Shown: piece by piece, positions 1 to 13,201 of the stretch
Numbering within the stretch: the first letter of the stretch is position 1
Layout: each line of letters starts with the position of its first letter
Origin: a bacterium
GTDB taxonomy: Bacteria; CSSED10-310; JAJRTK01
DNA: 13,201 bases
Direction: 5' to 3'
Assembly: GCA_024278345.1 (NCBI GenBank)
Contig: JAJRTK010000235.1
Span: 1 to 13,201 of the forward strand
The notes under the pieces: model-generated
Databases searched by the model: none
What the model saw: only the letters and a program-made list of their open reading frames with translations
What the model was told of the DNA's origin: nothing
Position numbers and translations under genes: made by a program

Positions 1-708
1 GGTTACGCGCCGTACGGAGAGAAGGCGGAGCAGGGCGCGGAAGCGATGGGAATGCTGGGCTTCACGGGCCGGGAAGCGGAGGCGGAGCTTGGGCTGTACT
101 ACCTGCGAGCGCGGTATTACCGTCCCCGGTGCGGCTGCTTCACGCAGGAGGATCCGATAGGGTTGGCGGGGGGAGACCTGAATCTTTACCGGTATGTGGG
201 GAATGACCCGGTAAATTTTGTCGATCCTATAGGAATGATAAAACTTAGGTTCTATATTAATAGCGGGTTATTAGTTGTTGACCCAGAAACTGGATATGTG
301 AGCAATTTCTACTTTCATGCTGAATCGGGAAAAGGGAATTGTTTGAATAATACATCGGAAGAGTGTCAACGAAGTTTGAATGTAGGTCCTATTACTCCAG
401 GAAATTACATGATAAATGTAAATGAACTTAGTGATCCATGGTTTCCGCGAGATATTTATAGGAATCTATTTTTGGGTGCAGATTGGGGGGATTGGCGTGT
501 TCCTCTTCATCCAGATACTAATACTCAGCAGAGGATAAATGAAGCCGGACGAACTGGAGGATTTTACCTCCATGGAGGAATGTTTCCGGGTTCGGCTGGA
601 TGTATCGATATCGGCGGTGGATGGTTTGGAAATAGTAATTCAGATTCCATAAAGAACTTGATTTTGTCTGATCCGGATTGGCTCATTCCTTTATCTGTGC
701 ATAAATAG
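1..708 (+). CDS. RHS-repeat protein C-terminus with L,D-transpeptidase/Tlde1-like toxin tip (5' partial)
   Basis: The reading frame is open from base 1, so this is the end of a larger RHS polymorphic toxin gene. Window residues 1-78 are the RHS-associated core. They carry the usual YYLRARYY segment, a DPIG at 51-54 followed by NLYRYVGN, and the closing DPIG at 75-78 where RHS proteins are normally cut to release the toxin. Residues 79-235 form a variable tip. It has GPITPGNY (129-136) and YLHGG...PGSAGCIDIG, with His191 and Cys201 placed like the catalytic His and Cys of L,D-transpeptidase/YkuD and DUF2778 (Tlde1) enzymes. Known members of that fold cut or exchange D-amino acids on peptidoglycan stem peptides in the periplasm, so a cell-wall toxin delivered to competitors is inferred. 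Base composition turns sharply AT-rich right after the DPIG codons, as expected for an exchanged tip. Confidence is high for RHS and moderate for the enzyme class. Confidence 0.85.
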   Translation, partial: GYAPYGEKAEQGAEAMGMLGFTGREAEAELGLYYLRARYYRPRCGCFTQEDPIGLAGGDLNLYRYVGNDPVNFVDPIGMIKLRFYINSGLLVVDPETGYVSNFYFHAESGKGNCLNNTSEECQRSLNVGPITPGNYMINVNELSDPWFPRDIYRNLFLGADWGDWRVPLHPDTNTQQRINEAGRTGGFYLHGGMFPGSAGCIDIGGGWFGNSNSDSIKNLILSDPDWLIPLSVHK

Positions 709-710
709 AG

Positions 711-1163
711 ATGGCAATAAACAATAAATTGCGTTATGATATTTTTACAGCATTTATCATTGGTGCATTGATGTCAACTATTAGTGTGTTTGGTTATTAC
801 TTGCTTTACTACAGCATGATAACGCCGAAGATGCGTTCGGGAGTGCTTGTGTCAAAGGCATGGCTTATTATTGCGTTTAATTTGAAGTATTTGCTTTGCT
901 TTGTATCTGGTTTGCTAATTGTTCGATGCCAATTTGCAATTGTTTTGTCGTTTTTTTTCTCTATCATTATTCATGGGTGTGATGCTTTCTTGGCCTTTTT
1001 GTCTTGTCCTGGTTATCGCAAGCATATATCTATCGAGAACCTATTGGTATATTGGACTGTTTATTTTGTGTTTTCTTGGATGGTTTGTTGCGTTATTATT
1101 ATTTTGGGAATGCGAATTCGCAGCTTGAGTTACGCTAAAAAGTATTTTAGGAGGCAAGTGTGA
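711..1163 (+). CDS. Four-helix membrane protein, candidate immunity protein for the RHS tip
   Basis: This 150-residue protein starts two bases after the toxin stop codon, so translational coupling is likely; no strong Shine-Dalgarno is seen. I do not recognise a family. Four hydrophobic stretches (about residues 11-35, 51-71, 75-99 and 111-134) predict an inner-membrane protein, with a basic tail (KKYFRRQV). Its AT-rich composition matches the toxin tip and differs from the GC-rich surroundings, so the two probably arrived as one cassette. In polymorphic toxin loci the gene directly after the toxin is usually its immunity gene. A membrane location would suit protection from a toxin acting at the periplasm or cell wall. 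The immunity role rests on position and composition only. An unrelated small membrane protein remains possible. Confidence 0.7.
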   Translation: MAINNKLRYDIFTAFIIGALMSTISVFGYYLLYYSMITPKMRSGVLVSKAWLIIAFNLKYLLCFVSGLLIVRCQFAIVLSFFFSIIIHGCDAFLAFLSCPGYRKHISIENLLVYWTVYFVFSWMVCCVIIILGMRIRSLSYAKKYFRRQV

Positions 1164-1234: not shown

Positions 1235-1858
1235 TTGGTTCTCTTGGCGGCGGTATCTCGAAGCCGCGTGGTGCGGACGTTGGTGACGGACCCGTTGGGG
1301 CGGAAGACGAGCTACCGATTCAATCCGAACCATTTCCGGACGGAGTACACCGACGCGCTGGGGAACACGTATCGTTACGAGCTGTCGCCGGTGATGAACC
1401 AGCTCTTGAAGAGGGTGGACCCGTTGGGCCGGACGACGCTCTTTTCGTACGACAGCCTTGGGAACCTGGTGTCGGTGACGGACGCCGGTGGGCACGGTGT
1501 GAGCTTGAATTACGAGCCCGTGGCCAGCCGCCTGACGTCCCTTGTGGATCCGGAGAGCCGCATCTGGAGCTTCCAGTAGGATGGCCTTGGGAACCTTGTG
1601 AAAGCGGTGGACCCTCTGGGCGGGGAGTGGTCGGCGACGCGGAACGAGCGTGGGCTGGTGAGCCAGGCGTCGGACCCGCTGGGGGCCGGTGTGAGCCTGG
1701 AATACGATGCATCTTGGGACCTGGTGTCGGCGACGGATCCGCTCGGGCGGCGTGTGTCGGTGGTGCGGGACGCCGGAGGCCGGGTGGACCACAGGCTTGC
1801 ACTGCCGAGGGCGGCTAGACCACAGGCTTGCACTGCCGAGGGCGGCAAGGCTCCGTGA
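1235..1858 (+). pseudogene. Displaced RHS YD-repeat fragment, interrupted by an in-frame TAG
   Basis: One continuous frame shows RHS repeats such as VTDPLGRKTSYRF, RVDPLGRTTLFSYD, LGNLVSVTDAGG and SATDPLGRRVSV. It is broken by a TAG at 1577-1579 and resumes at once with DGLGNLVKAVDPLGG. There is no RHS core, no DPxG junction and no toxin tip. The apparent TTG start (1235) lacks a ribosome binding site, and RHS-like sequence begins near 1258, so the left boundary is uncertain. The right end runs into a 29-bp tandem duplication and then a stop. RHS loci commonly accumulate such silent pieces downstream of the expressed gene through recombination, where they can serve as recombination donors. 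The fragment is GC-rich like the core and unlike the AT-rich toxin/immunity pair before it. It is unlikely to make a working protein. Confidence 0.75.
1787..1846. repeat. 29-bp direct duplication (31-bp period)
   Basis: The 29 bases at 1787-1815 recur exactly at 1818-1846, separated by the two bases TA. Each unit contains a TGCCG...CGGCA-type inverted stretch. The duplication lies at the decayed end of the RHS fragment and about 25 bases beyond the stop codon of the convergent hydrolase gene. No oligo-T tract follows it on either strand, so it is not a standard intrinsic terminator. Confidence 0.9.
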
Positions 1859-3765: not shown

Positions 3766-3913
3766 GGAACCTATCAAATCGATCCTTTTGTTTTACAATC
3801 TTCTTCGCTGAAACCGTAGCGCAGGCAATCTTGCCTGTGCAGTGCTGTCCGGGCTTCAGGGAGTCAGAGAGGAGACCCGACGCTGAAGTTGTCAGCCCGG
3901 TCTGACAGGTCCC
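3766..3913 (-). repeat. ~150-bp interspersed element with inverted ends, copy 1
   Basis: The element is bounded by GGAACCTATCAAATC (3766-3780) and, inverted at the other end, GGGACCTGTCAGACC (complement of 3899-3913). The 15-base ends differ only by four transitions. Internally it shares with 8849-9001 the blocks ggagtcagagagga and cgctgaagttgt, a hairpin (3819-3840) and an ATTGTAA...GATTTGAT pair near the gene-proximal end. It begins about 50 bases before the hydrolase start and has the same orientation to its gene as copy 2 has to the kinase. It looks like a MITE-like or REP-like non-autonomous element. A conserved leader or promoter module is the alternative. The outer limits are my estimate from two copies. 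Confidence 0.65.
3819..3840. repeat. Hairpin inside interspersed element copy 1
   Basis: GCGCAGGCA and TGCCTGTGC pair over nine positions (one G-T) around a four-base ATCT loop. The equivalent site in copy 2 (8903-8923) also pairs, with an A-T pair replaced by G-C. Confidence 0.7.
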
Positions 3914-3999
3914 GGAGGGTATCCACGCAAGGCGGGACATTCCCGGGACTGTGGAATCGCAAGCGTCCGGGCAACGCCTCGCTATCGCTCGGCGGTCGT

Positions 4000-4463: not shown

Positions 4464-4702
4464 AGGGCGATGATAGGGGAGGGGCGGCGGACGGACTGCC
4501 GCCGACCCGACCGGACCTCAACCCCGAGCGAAGAGAACGGTTTTCCGGAGTTATGCCCTGAAGACGTGGATCGCGCCGCCGCGAGCGGAAGGTAGCCCAA
4601 AGAGACAAGAGCATTTTTTCTCAATGTGCCCTCAAGGCGTGCCACCACCCGCCATCGGCCAACCCAAATGCTTTGAACTTTGCCGTGAGGATGGAACATA
4701 AC

Positions 4703-4864
4703 ATGAACAAGCTCTCTATTTTCGTCGGTGTGACAATCTTCAGTTCGCTTGGCTGGTGGATGGGTCAAGGAATTGGCGTCATGACCGCGTTTACGCTCAG
4801 CAGTGTGGGAAGCGTCATAGGCGTTTATGTCGGCTGGCGCGTCAATCGCAATCATTTCGGCTGA
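4703..4864 (+). CDS. 53-residue two-helix membrane protein
   Basis: This is read from the ATG at 4703 (MNKLSIFVGVTIFSSLG...). Two hydrophobic segments (about residues 3-22 and 25-45, with the loop GWWMGQGIG between them) are followed by a short polar end, WRVNRNHFG. The glycine-rich, aromatic loop and WRVNR ending resemble conserved small hypothetical membrane proteins seen in many bacteria; I know no function for them. An in-frame ATG at 4673 would add ten residues, but the shorter start places the first helix at the N-terminus. Purine-rich GTGAGGATGGAA lies upstream. The gene is convergent with the TPR gene and their 3' ends overlap by 13 bases (4852-4864). Confidence 0.6.
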   Translation: MNKLSIFVGVTIFSSLGWWMGQGIGVMTAFTLSSVGSVIGVYVGWRVNRNHFG

Positions 4865-7059
4865 CTTCGAGTTCCTGGAAACCGCCCTTCCTTTTCCAAC
4901 CAGCGGCGGAGGCTCCCGGGTAACTCTTCGGTAAGCTCGCCGCGGTAGAGGCGGTGAGTTTGCCCGGCTTCGAAAGCTATCTGAGCCCGCTGCAGAGCCT
5001 GGATTCTCTGGCTGATCTCACCGCCGTCGGCGACTTTAAGCTCCTGATGCAAGACCCGAGCTCGACGCAACAAGCCGCGGGCAGAGCGATTCTCGGACAG
5101 CCGGAAATGTCCCCGGAAGCAGGCCAACCTGGCAAGCTCCTGCTTATCCTTCACCGAGCTCAAAAGCCGTAGACTGCGCCGAAAAAGGGGCTGGAGATCA
5201 GCCGGCTTCAGGGCTGGCGCAGTCTGCCGTTGAAGGTCGGCCTGGTGGGCAAGCAGAATCCCTTCCAAGCGCCGGTCGCGGAGCTTCCGAAGAAGGCTCA
5301 AGGCTTCCTGAATGAGATCCGCGGCACTTTCCAGGCGGCCTTGCTTTCGCCTCAAGGTGGCCAGATGTCCCAAGGTCACCCCCTCCCCCCGGCGATCTCC
5401 AGTGTCTCGATGAAGCCCCTGTGCCCGTAAAAGGAAGGATTCGGCCTTTTCGAGCCGATTCTCCCGGCTGTAGAGTTCGGCAAGATTACTGAGAATCACG
5501 GCTTGATGGCGGCTGTGCTCAAGCTTCTCGAAAATCCCAAGGGCCTCTTCCAGCAGGGTTCTGGTTTTCGCCAAATCTCCGTGCCGTTCGTGGTACTCGG
5601 CAAGGTTGGATAACGTGATGGCCTCATCCAGCCGGTTGGCAAAATCAGAGTGAATCTGCAGGGCCTGGAGGAGCAATAAATGAGACACATCTAGCTGCCC
5701 CTGCTCCTGGTGGAGCATGGCGAGGTTGTTGACCACTTGCCCCTCGAAGCGCCGGTTTCCACATTCCCGGTGCAACCGCAAAGCTTCCTCGTACAACCTC
5801 TGGGCTTCCGCTATCCGACCCTGGGCATGATGCAAGACAGCCAAATGACCACGGACAATGCCTTCTCTGCCACGATCTTCGGCCTGGCTAAAAATGCTCA
5901 AGGCCTCTTCGAAGAGTTTGCGTGCCTTGTCCATCTCGGCATGATCCCAATGCAAGCCGGCCAGGTTGGTCAGGGTCTTGGCCCGAGCCAGGGGATTTCC
6001 AGACTTTTCATGGATGGCCAGGGCGATGAGAAAGCGTTCACGGGCTGACTCCATCCGGCCCCGTTCCCGGTCAATGCTTCCCAAATTATCTTGGGTTTTC
6101 GCGATTTCATCGTCATCGGAAAGCTGCTGGAAGAGCTTGATCGCGTCTGTAAGAAGCTCCCCGGCACTATCGACGCGACCCGTTCTCCAGTGGATGATTC
6201 CCATGGCCCGCAAGCTTTGGCCTTCCAACACCGGCCGGCCCAGTTTCCGCGCCTCCGCCAAAGCATCCCCATGCGCCCGTTCCGCTTCCGCCATGAGCCC
6301 CTGAACGTAAAGCACACCGTAGCCATATTCATTCCGAACCCGGATCGCCTCGGAAGTGGGGACCGTGACAAGACGCAGGTAATCTTGATATGATTGCCGT
6401 GCTTCAACCAGTGCATAGCCTTTCCGGGCGCGACGGCCAGCGCGAAGGTAGCTAGCCTGAGCTCGATCAATGTCGCATGCCCGTTCCCAATGGAATCCGA
6501 GTTCCCCCCAATAGTCGCTCAGATCCGCCGCATAGACGGACTCCAAGCTCCGAGCCGCCATCCGATGGAACCTGGACCTGTCCTTCTGAGAGTTCTGCTC
6601 GTATGCGCCCTCCCTTAGAGTCTCATGGGAGAAACGCAAAGCCCTGGCCCCGGTTTCGACGATCCACTCCCGTCGGGCGAGTTCGGTCCAAGCATCCTTC
6701 CACCACACGGAATCCTCTTCCGGCTCACAAAGCCTCAAAAACTCTTCCAGGAGAGGTAAACTGATTTCGCGGCCCAGAATGGCAGCGAGCTGGGCCAGGT
6801 AACGGGCGGAAGGGGAAAGAGCTGCCAACCGGCGACCCACCAGGTCGCGGAGCGACGCCGGTAGCTCGAGGCGTTCATAATCGGCGGCATCGGGCTCCAC
6901 GATTCCCGGACCCAGCCGCCAACGGCCCTGCTCGTCTCTCCACAGCAGAGTACTGTCCACCGCGGTGCGCAAGTACTCCGCCACGAAAAATGGATTGCCC
7001 TCCGAGCGGCGGGCAAGAAACTCCGTCAATCCCTCCGGCGCGACCTCTAACGCCAACAT
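4852..7059 (-). CDS. ATPase C-terminal part plus TPR array (second half of split kinase-ATPase-TPR regulator)
   Basis: The 735-residue frame opens with LTEFLARRSEGNPFFVAEYLR (residues 11-31), the sensor-like GNPFF segment that closes the NTPase core in PknK/MalT/STAND-type proteins. It therefore starts in the middle of a domain. A helical region resembling the winged-helix part of such ATPases follows (LPASLRDLVGRRLAALS..., about 67-155). From about residue 278 to 600 there are roughly eight 40-residue tetratricopeptide repeats of the pattern NLA.L....G....A...L.EAL.IH, a protein-binding scaffold. The N-terminus lacks Walker A and B, which lie in the preceding ORF. The ATG at 7059 overlaps the kinase ORF stop by 13 bases and has only a weak upstream purine stretch. 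I read it as the rest of the kinase protein after a frameshift; a separate, translationally coupled subunit is the alternative. Confidence 0.85.
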   Translation of the reverse strand: MLALEVAPEGLTEFLARRSEGNPFFVAEYLRTAVDSTLLWRDEQGRWRLGPGIVEPDAADYERLELPASLRDLVGRRLAALSPSARYLAQLAAILGREISLPLLEEFLRLCEPEEDSVWWKDAWTELARREWIVETGARALRFSHETLREGAYEQNSQKDRSRFHRMAARSLESVYAADLSDYWGELGFHWERACDIDRAQASYLRAGRRARKGYALVEARQSYQDYLRLVTVPTSEAIRVRNEYGYGVLYVQGLMAEAERAHGDALAEARKLGRPVLEGQSLRAMGIIHWRTGRVDSAGELLTDAIKLFQQLSDDDEIAKTQDNLGSIDRERGRMESARERFLIALAIHEKSGNPLARAKTLTNLAGLHWDHAEMDKARKLFEEALSIFSQAEDRGREGIVRGHLAVLHHAQGRIAEAQRLYEEALRLHRECGNRRFEGQVVNNLAMLHQEQGQLDVSHLLLLQALQIHSDFANRLDEAITLSNLAEYHERHGDLAKTRTLLEEALGIFEKLEHSRHQAVILSNLAELYSRENRLEKAESFLLRAQGLHRDTGDRRGEGVTLGHLATLRRKQGRLESAADLIQEALSLLRKLRDRRLEGILLAHQADLQRQTAPALKPADLQPLFRRSLRLLSSVKDKQELARLACFRGHFRLSENRSARGLLRRARVLHQELKVADGGEISQRIQALQRAQIAFEAGQTHRLYRGELTEELPGSLRRWLEKEGRFPGTRSQPK

Positions 7060-8771
7060 GTCGGTGAAATTCCAGCTACGTCGGGTGGCAAAAGCCGTAC
7101 CAGCTCCATGCGCTCGGCCCCGGAACCGGCCAAGATCTCAGCCAAAACAGGAGAGAGGGAGGAGCCCAGCTCTTCGCTTCGATAGGCCCCAAGGACGAGC
7201 AGAGGCCCACAATCAGATGTTTGGGCATAGTGCTGAAGAAAACTCAGGCTCAGATCGTCGGCCCACTGGAGATCGTCAAGGATAAGGAGGGTTGGGTTGG
7301 TTGCCGCAAATGCATCCAGAGTCTTGGTCAAATCGCGATAGAGCCGCGCCTGGGCGTCGGCGACTGGCAAAGACGACAAGTCGATGGACTTGGCCTGTCC
7401 CGGTAGCTTGGAAAGAGCTGGCTCATAGGCCGCCAGGCGGCCGCCGTGCTTGGCCAAGAGGAAACCGGTCATCTCGGGTCCTTCCTGCAAGCAGATGTCA
7501 ACGACCGCCCTCAGCGCGGGACGCAGAAGCTGGAGTGGCCCCTTGCGCTCCACGGTAGCCTCGCTCACAACTACGCGAAACCCCGATTTCTTGGCCTCCC
7601 GAGCCAACTCCACAAGGAGTCGGGTTTTGCCGATACCGCTTTCGCCTCCAAGGAGGATCACGCCTCCGCCATCCCGCTCCAGGTTTTCGAGCCGGTTGCG
7701 CAGCCGCCTTAGCTCCAGATCCCGGCCGCTCAAGCCTGGCCGGTACAGATAGCTCAGCGATGTCGAGCTAACGGGCCAAATCCCATTGCTCGCGCCCAAC
7801 CCACCCAAGGCCCTGGCAAGGTCAGTGGCATAGCCAAATCTCTTTCCAGGGTCTTTTTCCAGCAGTTTCAAGACGAGCCGATCCAAGGCCAGGGGGATCT
7901 CGTCTCGGTGCTCGGAAGGCGGTGGAGGCGCATCGTGAAGGTGGCCGTGCAAAAGAGGGCCAGATTCTTTGCCTACAAATGGAGGACTCCCAGTGAGCAA
8001 CTCGTACAAGATGCAGCCCAACGCATAAAGATCGGTGCGAGCATCGCAAACTTCCCCCCGGATCTGCTCGGGAGCCATGTAGGCTGCCGTGCCCGCCGCG
8101 AGGCCGGCGACCTGCAAAACTTCTTGATTCATCCCGGCGGGAAAGTGCTGCGTGAGGCCAAAATCGACCAGCACGGGCCTCGCATCAGGACGCAACAGAA
8201 TGTTCTCCGGTTTCAAATCGCAATGTACGACACCGTGGCTGTGGAGATAATCCAGCGGATCACATAACCGCCGCACCAAAGTCAGCGATGCCTGGAAGTC
8301 CCCCAAGGCGCAGTCTTGACCGGACTCCCCAGGGCGAAAAATCTCCCCCGGGGATCTCTTGGAGCGAAAGGAATGCCCCAAGCGCTCCGAAGAGAAACCG
8401 CTCTCCGGATCCTGCCGCGCATTCCCGGCCAAAGGTCCCGCAAGCGAGCTTGTCCACCAAGGCAAAGTGGGACTTTCACCCAGCCATTGCCGCAGGGAAA
8501 GTCCCGGTATGATCTCCATGGCATACCATGGAACCGCACCCTGGATTCCCTCGTCGCGAATCGCCACGATCCCGGGATGAGAGAGCTTGGCCAGCGCCCT
8601 GATCTCCCGCCTTAGACTGTCCAACAGCCCGGCTGCTGGGCTTCGAACGGTCTTGAGGGCGACCTGGGCCTTGGACTGCCGGCACTCCGCCAGCCAAACG
8701 ACTCCCATCCCTCCCTGTCCCAACGGCCTGAGAAGGCGATACGGTCCCACTGTAGAGTCTGGTGCTAACAC
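7047..8771 (-). CDS. Serine/threonine protein kinase with AAA-type NTPase domain (first half of split regulator)
   Basis: The GTG at 8771 is chosen as start because GAGGGG (8781-8786) lies nine bases upstream and the kinase domain begins directly after it. A TTG at 8798 would add nine residues. In GTG numbering the kinase has a glycine loop GQGGMGVV (19-26), Lys40, HCDLKPEN (183-190, Cys in place of the usual Arg), DFG (203-205) and APE (233-235), so it should be catalytically competent. An unusual ~50-residue insert sits between hinge and helix E (about 98-155). After a linker comes an NTPase with Walker A GGESGIGKT (375-383) and Walker B LLILDD (495-500). The ORF ends LPPDVAGISPTCWR just before the conserved GNPFF segment, which continues in the overlapping ORF at 4852-7059. 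The arrangement resembles PknK-like regulators in which TPR or ATPase domains sense a signal and control the kinase. The target is unknown. Confidence 0.88.
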   Translation of the reverse strand: MLAPDSTVGPYRLLRPLGQGGMGVVWLAECRQSKAQVALKTVRSPAAGLLDSLRREIRALAKLSHPGIVAIRDEGIQGAVPWYAMEIIPGLSLRQWLGESPTLPWWTSSLAGPLAGNARQDPESGFSSERLGHSFRSKRSPGEIFRPGESGQDCALGDFQASLTLVRRLCDPLDYLHSHGVVHCDLKPENILLRPDARPVLVDFGLTQHFPAGMNQEVLQVAGLAAGTAAYMAPEQIRGEVCDARTDLYALGCILYELLTGSPPFVGKESGPLLHGHLHDAPPPPSEHRDEIPLALDRLVLKLLEKDPGKRFGYATDLARALGGLGASNGIWPVSSTSLSYLYRPGLSGRDLELRRLRNRLENLERDGGGVILLGGESGIGKTRLLVELAREAKKSGFRVVVSEATVERKGPLQLLRPALRAVVDICLQEGPEMTGFLLAKHGGRLAAYEPALSKLPGQAKSIDLSSLPVADAQARLYRDLTKTLDAFAATNPTLLILDDLQWADDLSLSFLQHYAQTSDCGPLLVLGAYRSEELGSSLSPVLAEILAGSGAERMELVRLLPPDVAGISPTCWR

Positions 8772-8780
8772 GAATCCGCT

Positions 8781-8786
8781 CCCCTC
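8781..8786 (-). promoter_or_regulatory. Ribosome binding site supporting the kinase GTG start
   Basis: GAGGGG on the minus strand, nine bases from the GTG at 8771. No comparable site precedes the alternative TTG (8798) or the GTG at 8789. Confidence 0.55.
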
Positions 8787-8848
8787 CACTGCCCGCAACA
8801 GGCCATTCTGCTGGACTGCACGGCAGGATCCAAGCCTTGGTTGAACCG

Positions 8849-9001
8849 CCGCCCATCAAATCGTCGTTTTTCTACGTTACAATTACCTCCGCCGAAATCG
8901 TGGCGCGGGCATCTTGCCCATGCCGTGCCAGCGGGACTTGACGGAGTCAGAGAGGATACCGGCCCCACCGCTGAAGTTGTAAACCGGGTTTGATAGGTCC
9001 C
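8849..9001 (-). repeat. ~150-bp interspersed element with inverted ends, copy 2
   Basis: This is the second copy of the element at 3766-3913. Its far end is GGGACCTATCAAACC (complement of 8987-9001), almost the same as the near end of copy 1. Its own near end is more diverged (CCATCAAATC, 8853-8862). Shared blocks are ggagtcagagagga, cgctgaagttgt, the hairpin at 8903-8923 and ATTGTAA...GATTTGAT. It lies about 77 bases before the kinase start and points the same way relative to the gene as copy 1. A further inverted match, GACCTGTCAA, follows immediately (around 9009-9018). The rest of the gap 8799-9170 holds a 13-bp direct repeat (9095-9107 and 9148-9160) and no gene that I can support. Confidence 0.6.
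8903..8923. repeat. Hairpin inside interspersed element copy 2
   Basis: GCGCGGGCA and TGCCCATGC can pair around a three-base TCT loop with one mismatch and one G-T. This matches the hairpin of copy 1 and includes an A-T to G-C compensatory pair. Confidence 0.6.
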
Positions 9002-9170
9002 GTTGAAGAGACCTGTCAAGCTTTCCCGCAGCTCTGCTCCAAAGCTTGCCGCCGAAAGCCGCCGCGCCCATTCTCCCGGCCCGCATGCAGAACCCCGCCA
9101 CGGTCTTTTTCCGCCCCCCGGCAGCGCGTGCGGGCCGGGAGACCCGCCCGCCACGGTCTTCCTTCATCAG

Positions 9171-13003: not shown

Positions 13004-13197
13004 TACCATGAAAGTACATGGTTAAATCCATCTTCGACGGCGTGGTTATGGCGCTCGGCGCCATTCACTTTCATCTTCCGGGGTGTGGTCGCCAGGATCA
13101 TGCTCGTTACCATGAAAGTACATGGTTAAATCCATCTTCGACGGCGTGGTTATGGCGCTCGGCGCCATTCACTTTCATCTTCCGGGGTGTGGTCGCC
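13004..13197. repeat. Two identical 90-bp direct repeats, 104-bp period
   Basis: Bases 13004-13093 recur without a difference at 13108-13197, separated by a 14-base spacer. Each unit contains ACCATG-AAAGTA-CATGGT and GGCGC-TCG-GCGCC inverted repeats. An outer pair, ATGAAAGT and ACTTTCAT, could close the whole unit into a stem-loop. The window stops four bases after the second copy, so more units may follow. No gene is evident in 12957-13201. Confidence 0.9.
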
Positions 13198-13201
13198 GGG
13201 A

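Follow-up and report, generated by a model that had tools for sequence, protein, structure and literature searches.

The first frame of the window (the whole stretch of DNA analysed, 13,201 nucleotides) ends in a domain that had been read, from the DNA alone, as the peptidoglycan-targeting tip of an RHS protein. This raises the question of whether the domain does belong to a family of cell-wall enzymes, and whether the locus that carries it is organized as a toxin with a partner that would protect its producer.

The RHS core, the tip and the AT-rich cassette

Starting at the first base of the contig, frame +1 runs uninterrupted to the stop codon at 706-708 and encodes 235 residues. Its first part (1-234, plus strand) is the C-terminal end of an RHS-associated core, the 5' part of which is lost at the contig start. 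In a profile search of the window protein, the RHS-associated core model TIGR03696 matched residues 2-79 with an E of 1e-25, ending exactly where the second of two DPIG motifs stands. The first of these motifs occupies residues 51-54 and the second, at the junction of core and tip, residues 75-78 (223-234, plus strand); the two are 20 residues apart, or 19 if a fifth residue is counted as in DPLGL, and are of the autocleavage plug type. The cleavage site of the Rhs1 toxin follows a pair of DPLGL motifs spaced by 17 residues, and cleavage depends on the Asp in the second of them (PMC8636562). Going by the motif, release of the tip by autocleavage just 3' of the second DPIG is predicted. As residues 1-78 belong to the core, the tip proper comprises 157 residues, encoded by 235-705 on the plus strand and followed by the stop codon.

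The protein is thus built as an RHS-associated core that ends in DPxG and is followed by a variable tip, and this tip differs from the core in composition. The GC content is 62% in the core (GC3 0.71), 39.5% in the tip (GC3 0.30), 35.6% in the next gene (711-1163) and 65% in the RHS fragment beyond it, with a GC break at either end of the pair formed by the toxin tip and its neighbouring gene. Because the composition shifts sharply from residue 79, the tip and the gene at 711-1163 look like one inserted cassette. The original prediction had described an AT-rich domain of about 157 residues immediately after DPIG, and the frame, the core boundary and the drop in GC all bear this out. On its 3' side, the cassette is bounded by a decayed RHS-repeat fragment (1235-1858, plus strand; the 65% GC refers to 1268-1798) with an in-frame TAG at about 1577, which is not required for the function proposed below. 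A stretch of contig C484 matches 96 bases of this fragment (1244-1339) at 99% identity; elsewhere in the window, 49 bases (4484-4532) are 84% alike to part of the same contig.

Family and fold of the tip

When searched alone, the tip matched the Pfam family Tlde1_dom (PF10908, formerly DUF2778) with an E of 6e-7 and 30.3 bits, which marginally exceeds the gathering cut-off of 30.1; with the core attached, the score was 29.0 bits. That the Pfam score of the single window protein is barely above the cut-off should be counted against our best reading. For YkuD (PF03734), a Pfam search with E up to 10 reported no match to the tip, the curated cut-off was not reached, and YkuD as the direct family of the tip was dropped in favour of PF10908. 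The expectation of an L,D-transpeptidase or DUF2778 enzyme therefore holds for the second of the two profiles that had been named for checking, whereas the first gives no match to the tip itself.

Relatives of the tip were gathered from plasmids, one phage-like record, viral contigs and genomes. An alignment of the window tip with 16 viral relatives (A5, 17 rows) served for further comparison: all 17 rows match PF10908 at an E of 1e-3 or better, and 11 of the 17 also match YkuD PF03734. In a search of the PDB with the A5 profile, Tlde1a was the sole significant match (E 1.1e-5), and it also ranked first, at an E of 0.05, when the tip was searched as a single sequence; in that alignment FYLHGGMFPGSAGC of the tip lies opposite FYIHDSTKGYSHGC of Tlde1a, ungapped. 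The positions invariant in A5, in tip numbering (add 78 for the window residue), are S31-G32, G51-P52, W84-G85, R88, R106, H113-G114-G115, G119-S120, G122-C123 and D125. Judged from these comparisons, the likeness of the tip to the Tlde1 family goes beyond chance.

A structure of the tip predicted with A5 as alignment reached a mean pLDDT of 77.9 and a pTM of 0.77, with a poor stretch at 74-82; an earlier model from a poor six-row alignment (pLDDT 49) was left out of the results. Foldseek placed Tlde1a best for this model (E 9e-5), followed by B. subtilis YkuD, and VIA-align gave Tlde1a a Z of 12.9 with an rmsd of 2.4 Å over 122 residues, followed by Csd6 (Z 11.1), Pgp2 (Z 10.8) and YkuD (1Y7M, Z 9.8). 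When predicted viral proteins were used as structural targets, one top match was named Tlde1 domain-containing protein. The profile and the predicted model agree in showing a Tlde1/L,D-transpeptidase fold for the tip, and not the unrelated one that structure prediction might have returned. On the whole, the original interpretation stands.

Some candidate relatives were rejected. One genome-contig match (L002) proved to be a local similarity by chance within a long ORF that is unrelated (penicillin-acylase-like by reading), and protein matches of low significance (E 0.01-1) in 60 relatives were not accepted as homologs, the one that was inspected (L004) being an unrelated frame. A PF10908 scan of 386 genomes missed the window's own match, and its counts should for this reason be considered lower bounds.

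Genome context and delivery

The RHS core of the window is the single one found in the assembly, and PADLOC reported nothing for the RHS protein. Searches of the assembly for the VipB sheath, PAAR and Phage_base_V (VgrG) gave no match; as the assembly is about 88% complete, this absence of a T6SS is suggestive at most. A secretion signal cannot be seen, as the N-terminus of the RHS protein is cut off by the contig start; this and the lack of T6SS parts among the matches count against our best reading.

The lack of T6SS sheath, PAAR and VgrG matches, together with the cut RHS gene and the broken RHS fragment with its in-frame TAG at 1235-1858, would also suit a locus whose tip has the Tlde1 fold but which is an RHS remnant, decaying or displaced, and delivers nothing now. 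We consider this unlikely, although it is the strongest of the alternatives: where visible, the core, the tip and the downstream gene are intact and in frame, the tip has retained its catalytic residues, and RHS toxins also occur where there is no T6SS.

Several other features of the window were seen. On the minus strand, a kinase-like and ATPase-like ORF (7047-8798) has an overlap of a few bases with a TPR-like ORF (4852-7059), and the pair (4852-8798) resembles a single large protein that a frameshift or an assembly error has divided. A near-perfect direct repeat of 94 bases (13004-13097 and 13108-13201) at the contig end is possibly an assembly artefact, and two repeats of about 150 bases (3770-3914 and 8852-9002) are 74% alike.

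The active site and the SAGC variant

The motifs GPITPGNY and YLHGGMFPGSAGC, by which the domain had originally been recognized (the latter as YLHGG...PGSAGC), are both present in the tip. His191 (571-573, plus strand) aligns with H121 of Tlde1a, and Ser198-Ala199-Gly200-Cys201 (592-603, plus strand) places Cys201 (601-603) opposite C131 and Ala199 opposite H129. The spacing from His191 to Cys201 is 10 residues, equal to that of H121 and C131, with no gaps in the alignment, so that the spacing argument of the original prediction stands. His191, Ser198, Gly200 and Cys201 are invariant across A5, and the fold and the alignment suggest that His191 and Cys201 share one pocket.

The published (S/T)HGC motif of Tlde1 is not found in the window tip, which reads GSAGC where Tlde1a has S128-H129-G130-C131; PF10908 itself takes in members without (S/T)HGC. 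GSAGC or GSIGC is found in a Photobacterium plasmid protein, an Eleftheria plasmid protein, the phage-like record MT836786 and viral relatives, and GTAGC, which likewise occurs in the branch related to the tip, in a DUF4157-like fusion. The latter is a 516-residue frame in another genome (L041:652-2199) with an N-terminus that is DUF4157-like by eye, and the ORF next to it has a similar N-terminus. In a small tree, whose deeper nodes are weakly supported and which did not include Tlde1a, the members with SHGC, SQGC, SDGC and SEGC group with full support in a branch of their own, while the GS[A/I]GC relatives of plasmid, phage-like and phage origin fall into one branch apart from them; the nearest neighbour of the window tip is the Photobacterium protein, the two being paired at a support of 0.998. 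On these sequences, SAGC in place of SHGC is the rule within the tip's branch. The tip does diverge from the usual SHGC form, as had been noted, but it shares this divergence with its branch and is not private in it.

The Tlde1a variant H129A exchanges D-amino acids at the wild-type level, loses most of its crosslinking and part of its carboxypeptidase activity (PMC9638812). By analogy, enzymes of the GS[A/I]GC branch are predicted to behave like H129A. As the conserved His is replaced by Ala or Ile throughout the branch, the tip might instead share the fold with altered catalysis, targeting a different amide bond or serving as a binder, which we regard as improbable given that the four residues named above are invariant in A5 and that H129A retains wild-type exchange activity.

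The downstream gene as candidate immunity gene

Two bases after the toxin stop begins a gene of 150 codons (711-1163, plus strand; 35.6% GC) that the original prediction had overlooked. In a simple hydropathy scan, its product shows four membrane segments. For this protein, Pfam, PHROGs, PADLOC and plasmids gave no match and NCBIfam a single, meaningless one (E 8.1); comparison with the candidate immunity proteins of other loci revealed no convincing sequence similarity. By position and composition, the gene suits a linked immunity gene, and the layout is repeated elsewhere. Membrane-protein genes adjoin the GSAGC relatives at three other loci (L019, L020 and L021), among them those of the Photobacterium and Eleftheria proteins, each of which has a small ORF directly 3', with two predicted membrane segments. 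At five sampled S[H/Q/D/E]GC loci (L022, L023, L062, L063 and L064), the product of the next gene has a signal-peptide-like start, as read in this small sample without a signal-peptide predictor. Given its position, shared composition and repeated layout, the gene at 711-1163 is probably an immunity gene protecting the producer, a role that rests on position and layout since it has no family match and no convincing likeness among the candidates, which again counts against our best reading.

Several related membrane-protein ORFs flank the GSAGC Tlde1-like gene of MT836786 (L021:356-2902). Two of them are related at 29.5% identity (E 1.6e-9) and are possibly an immunity array.

Many relatives of the tip are encoded by phages and have no evident immunity gene, and it could be argued that the tip is an enzyme that serves the envelope of its producer, or a cell-wall enzyme that an RHS gene took over from a phage, and not an antibacterial toxin; this has little probability, as the closest relative, with which the tip pairs in the tree, is a plasmid protein with a membrane-protein gene directly 3', and toxins of this kind typically consist of a C-terminal tip on an RHS protein and a small gene linked to it (PMC3482391).

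More broadly, and only tentatively, the GS[A/I]GC proteins may represent a separate Tlde1-like branch in phages, plasmids and RHS toxins that has lost the substrate-positioning His and would mainly exchange D-amino acids or trim, rather than crosslink, with its toxin versions countered by integral membrane and not periplasmic immunity proteins.

Comparison with known systems

The best PDB match to the tip by both profile and fold, Tlde1a, is a T6SS effector of Salmonella Typhimurium (PDB 7UMA, 7UO3 and 7UO8). Besides the His-Cys spacing, the two share W84/G85/R88 and GGFY[L/I]H. Two disulfides are reported for Tlde1a, and the window tip cannot form both, as its cysteines are C36, C44 and C123 only (tip numbering). 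R99 of Tlde1a is not conserved in the tip and R115 is shifted by one residue, which should also be weighed against our best reading. Tlde1a is a free T6SS effector, whereas the domain analysed here is the tip of an RHS protein in a genome without a detected T6SS. YkuD-type L,D-transpeptidases (PF03734) have the same fold as the tip model, which differs from them in lacking the His of SHGC.

WP_237030757.1, a tlde1 domain-containing protein from a Photobacterium damselae plasmid, is 45.5% identical to the tip over 91% of its length. Like the window tip it has HGG-x3-GSAGCID and a membrane-protein gene directly downstream; unlike it, it is not an RHS protein, and it adjoins a terminase gene on the plasmid.

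Zhang et al. 2012 described Tox-LD-peptidase at the C-termini of RHS toxins, with linked immunity genes, and proposed that it damages the cell wall (PMC3482391). The window tip resembles it in being a C-terminal L,D-peptidase of an RHS protein with a linked gene and a motif of H, S and C, but the immunity partners given there are Imm16 and Imm57, and the product of 711-1163 matches no Pfam family. An unrelated genome (L022) encodes a second RHS protein whose tip matches PF10908. As the published toxins and this second protein share its make-up, the window locus belongs to an already known kind of weapon.

Proposed function

Our preferred reading, to which we give a probability of about three in four, is that the locus comprises the Tlde1-type tip of an RHS polymorphic toxin and its immunity gene, which arrived together in a single AT-rich cassette. 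The analysis shows the RHS core, the Tlde1-family tip with its fold and conserved catalytic residues, and the composition of the cassette; cleavage, delivery, activity, target and immunity are inferred. The RHS core forms the shell, and its terminal DPIG plug would, by its motif, cut the tip free. By homology, the tip would work in the periplasm of a target bacterium. Cys201 would be the nucleophile there, partnered by His191, and the tip would attack peptidoglycan stem peptides at the bond that precedes D-Ala4, as an L,D-carboxypeptidase, by D-amino-acid exchange, or both. With Ala in the place of Tlde1a H129, exchange and trimming may outweigh crosslinking, if the published variant is a guide, and the producer is probably shielded by the membrane protein with four segments that the next gene encodes.

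The locus adds an RHS-borne Tlde1 toxin for a poorly sampled lineage, in a genome without a detected T6SS. The GS[A/I]GC enzymes provide a natural set with the change that was introduced into Tlde1a by design (H129A), so that the role of this residue can be tested, and membrane proteins are the likely partners of this branch.
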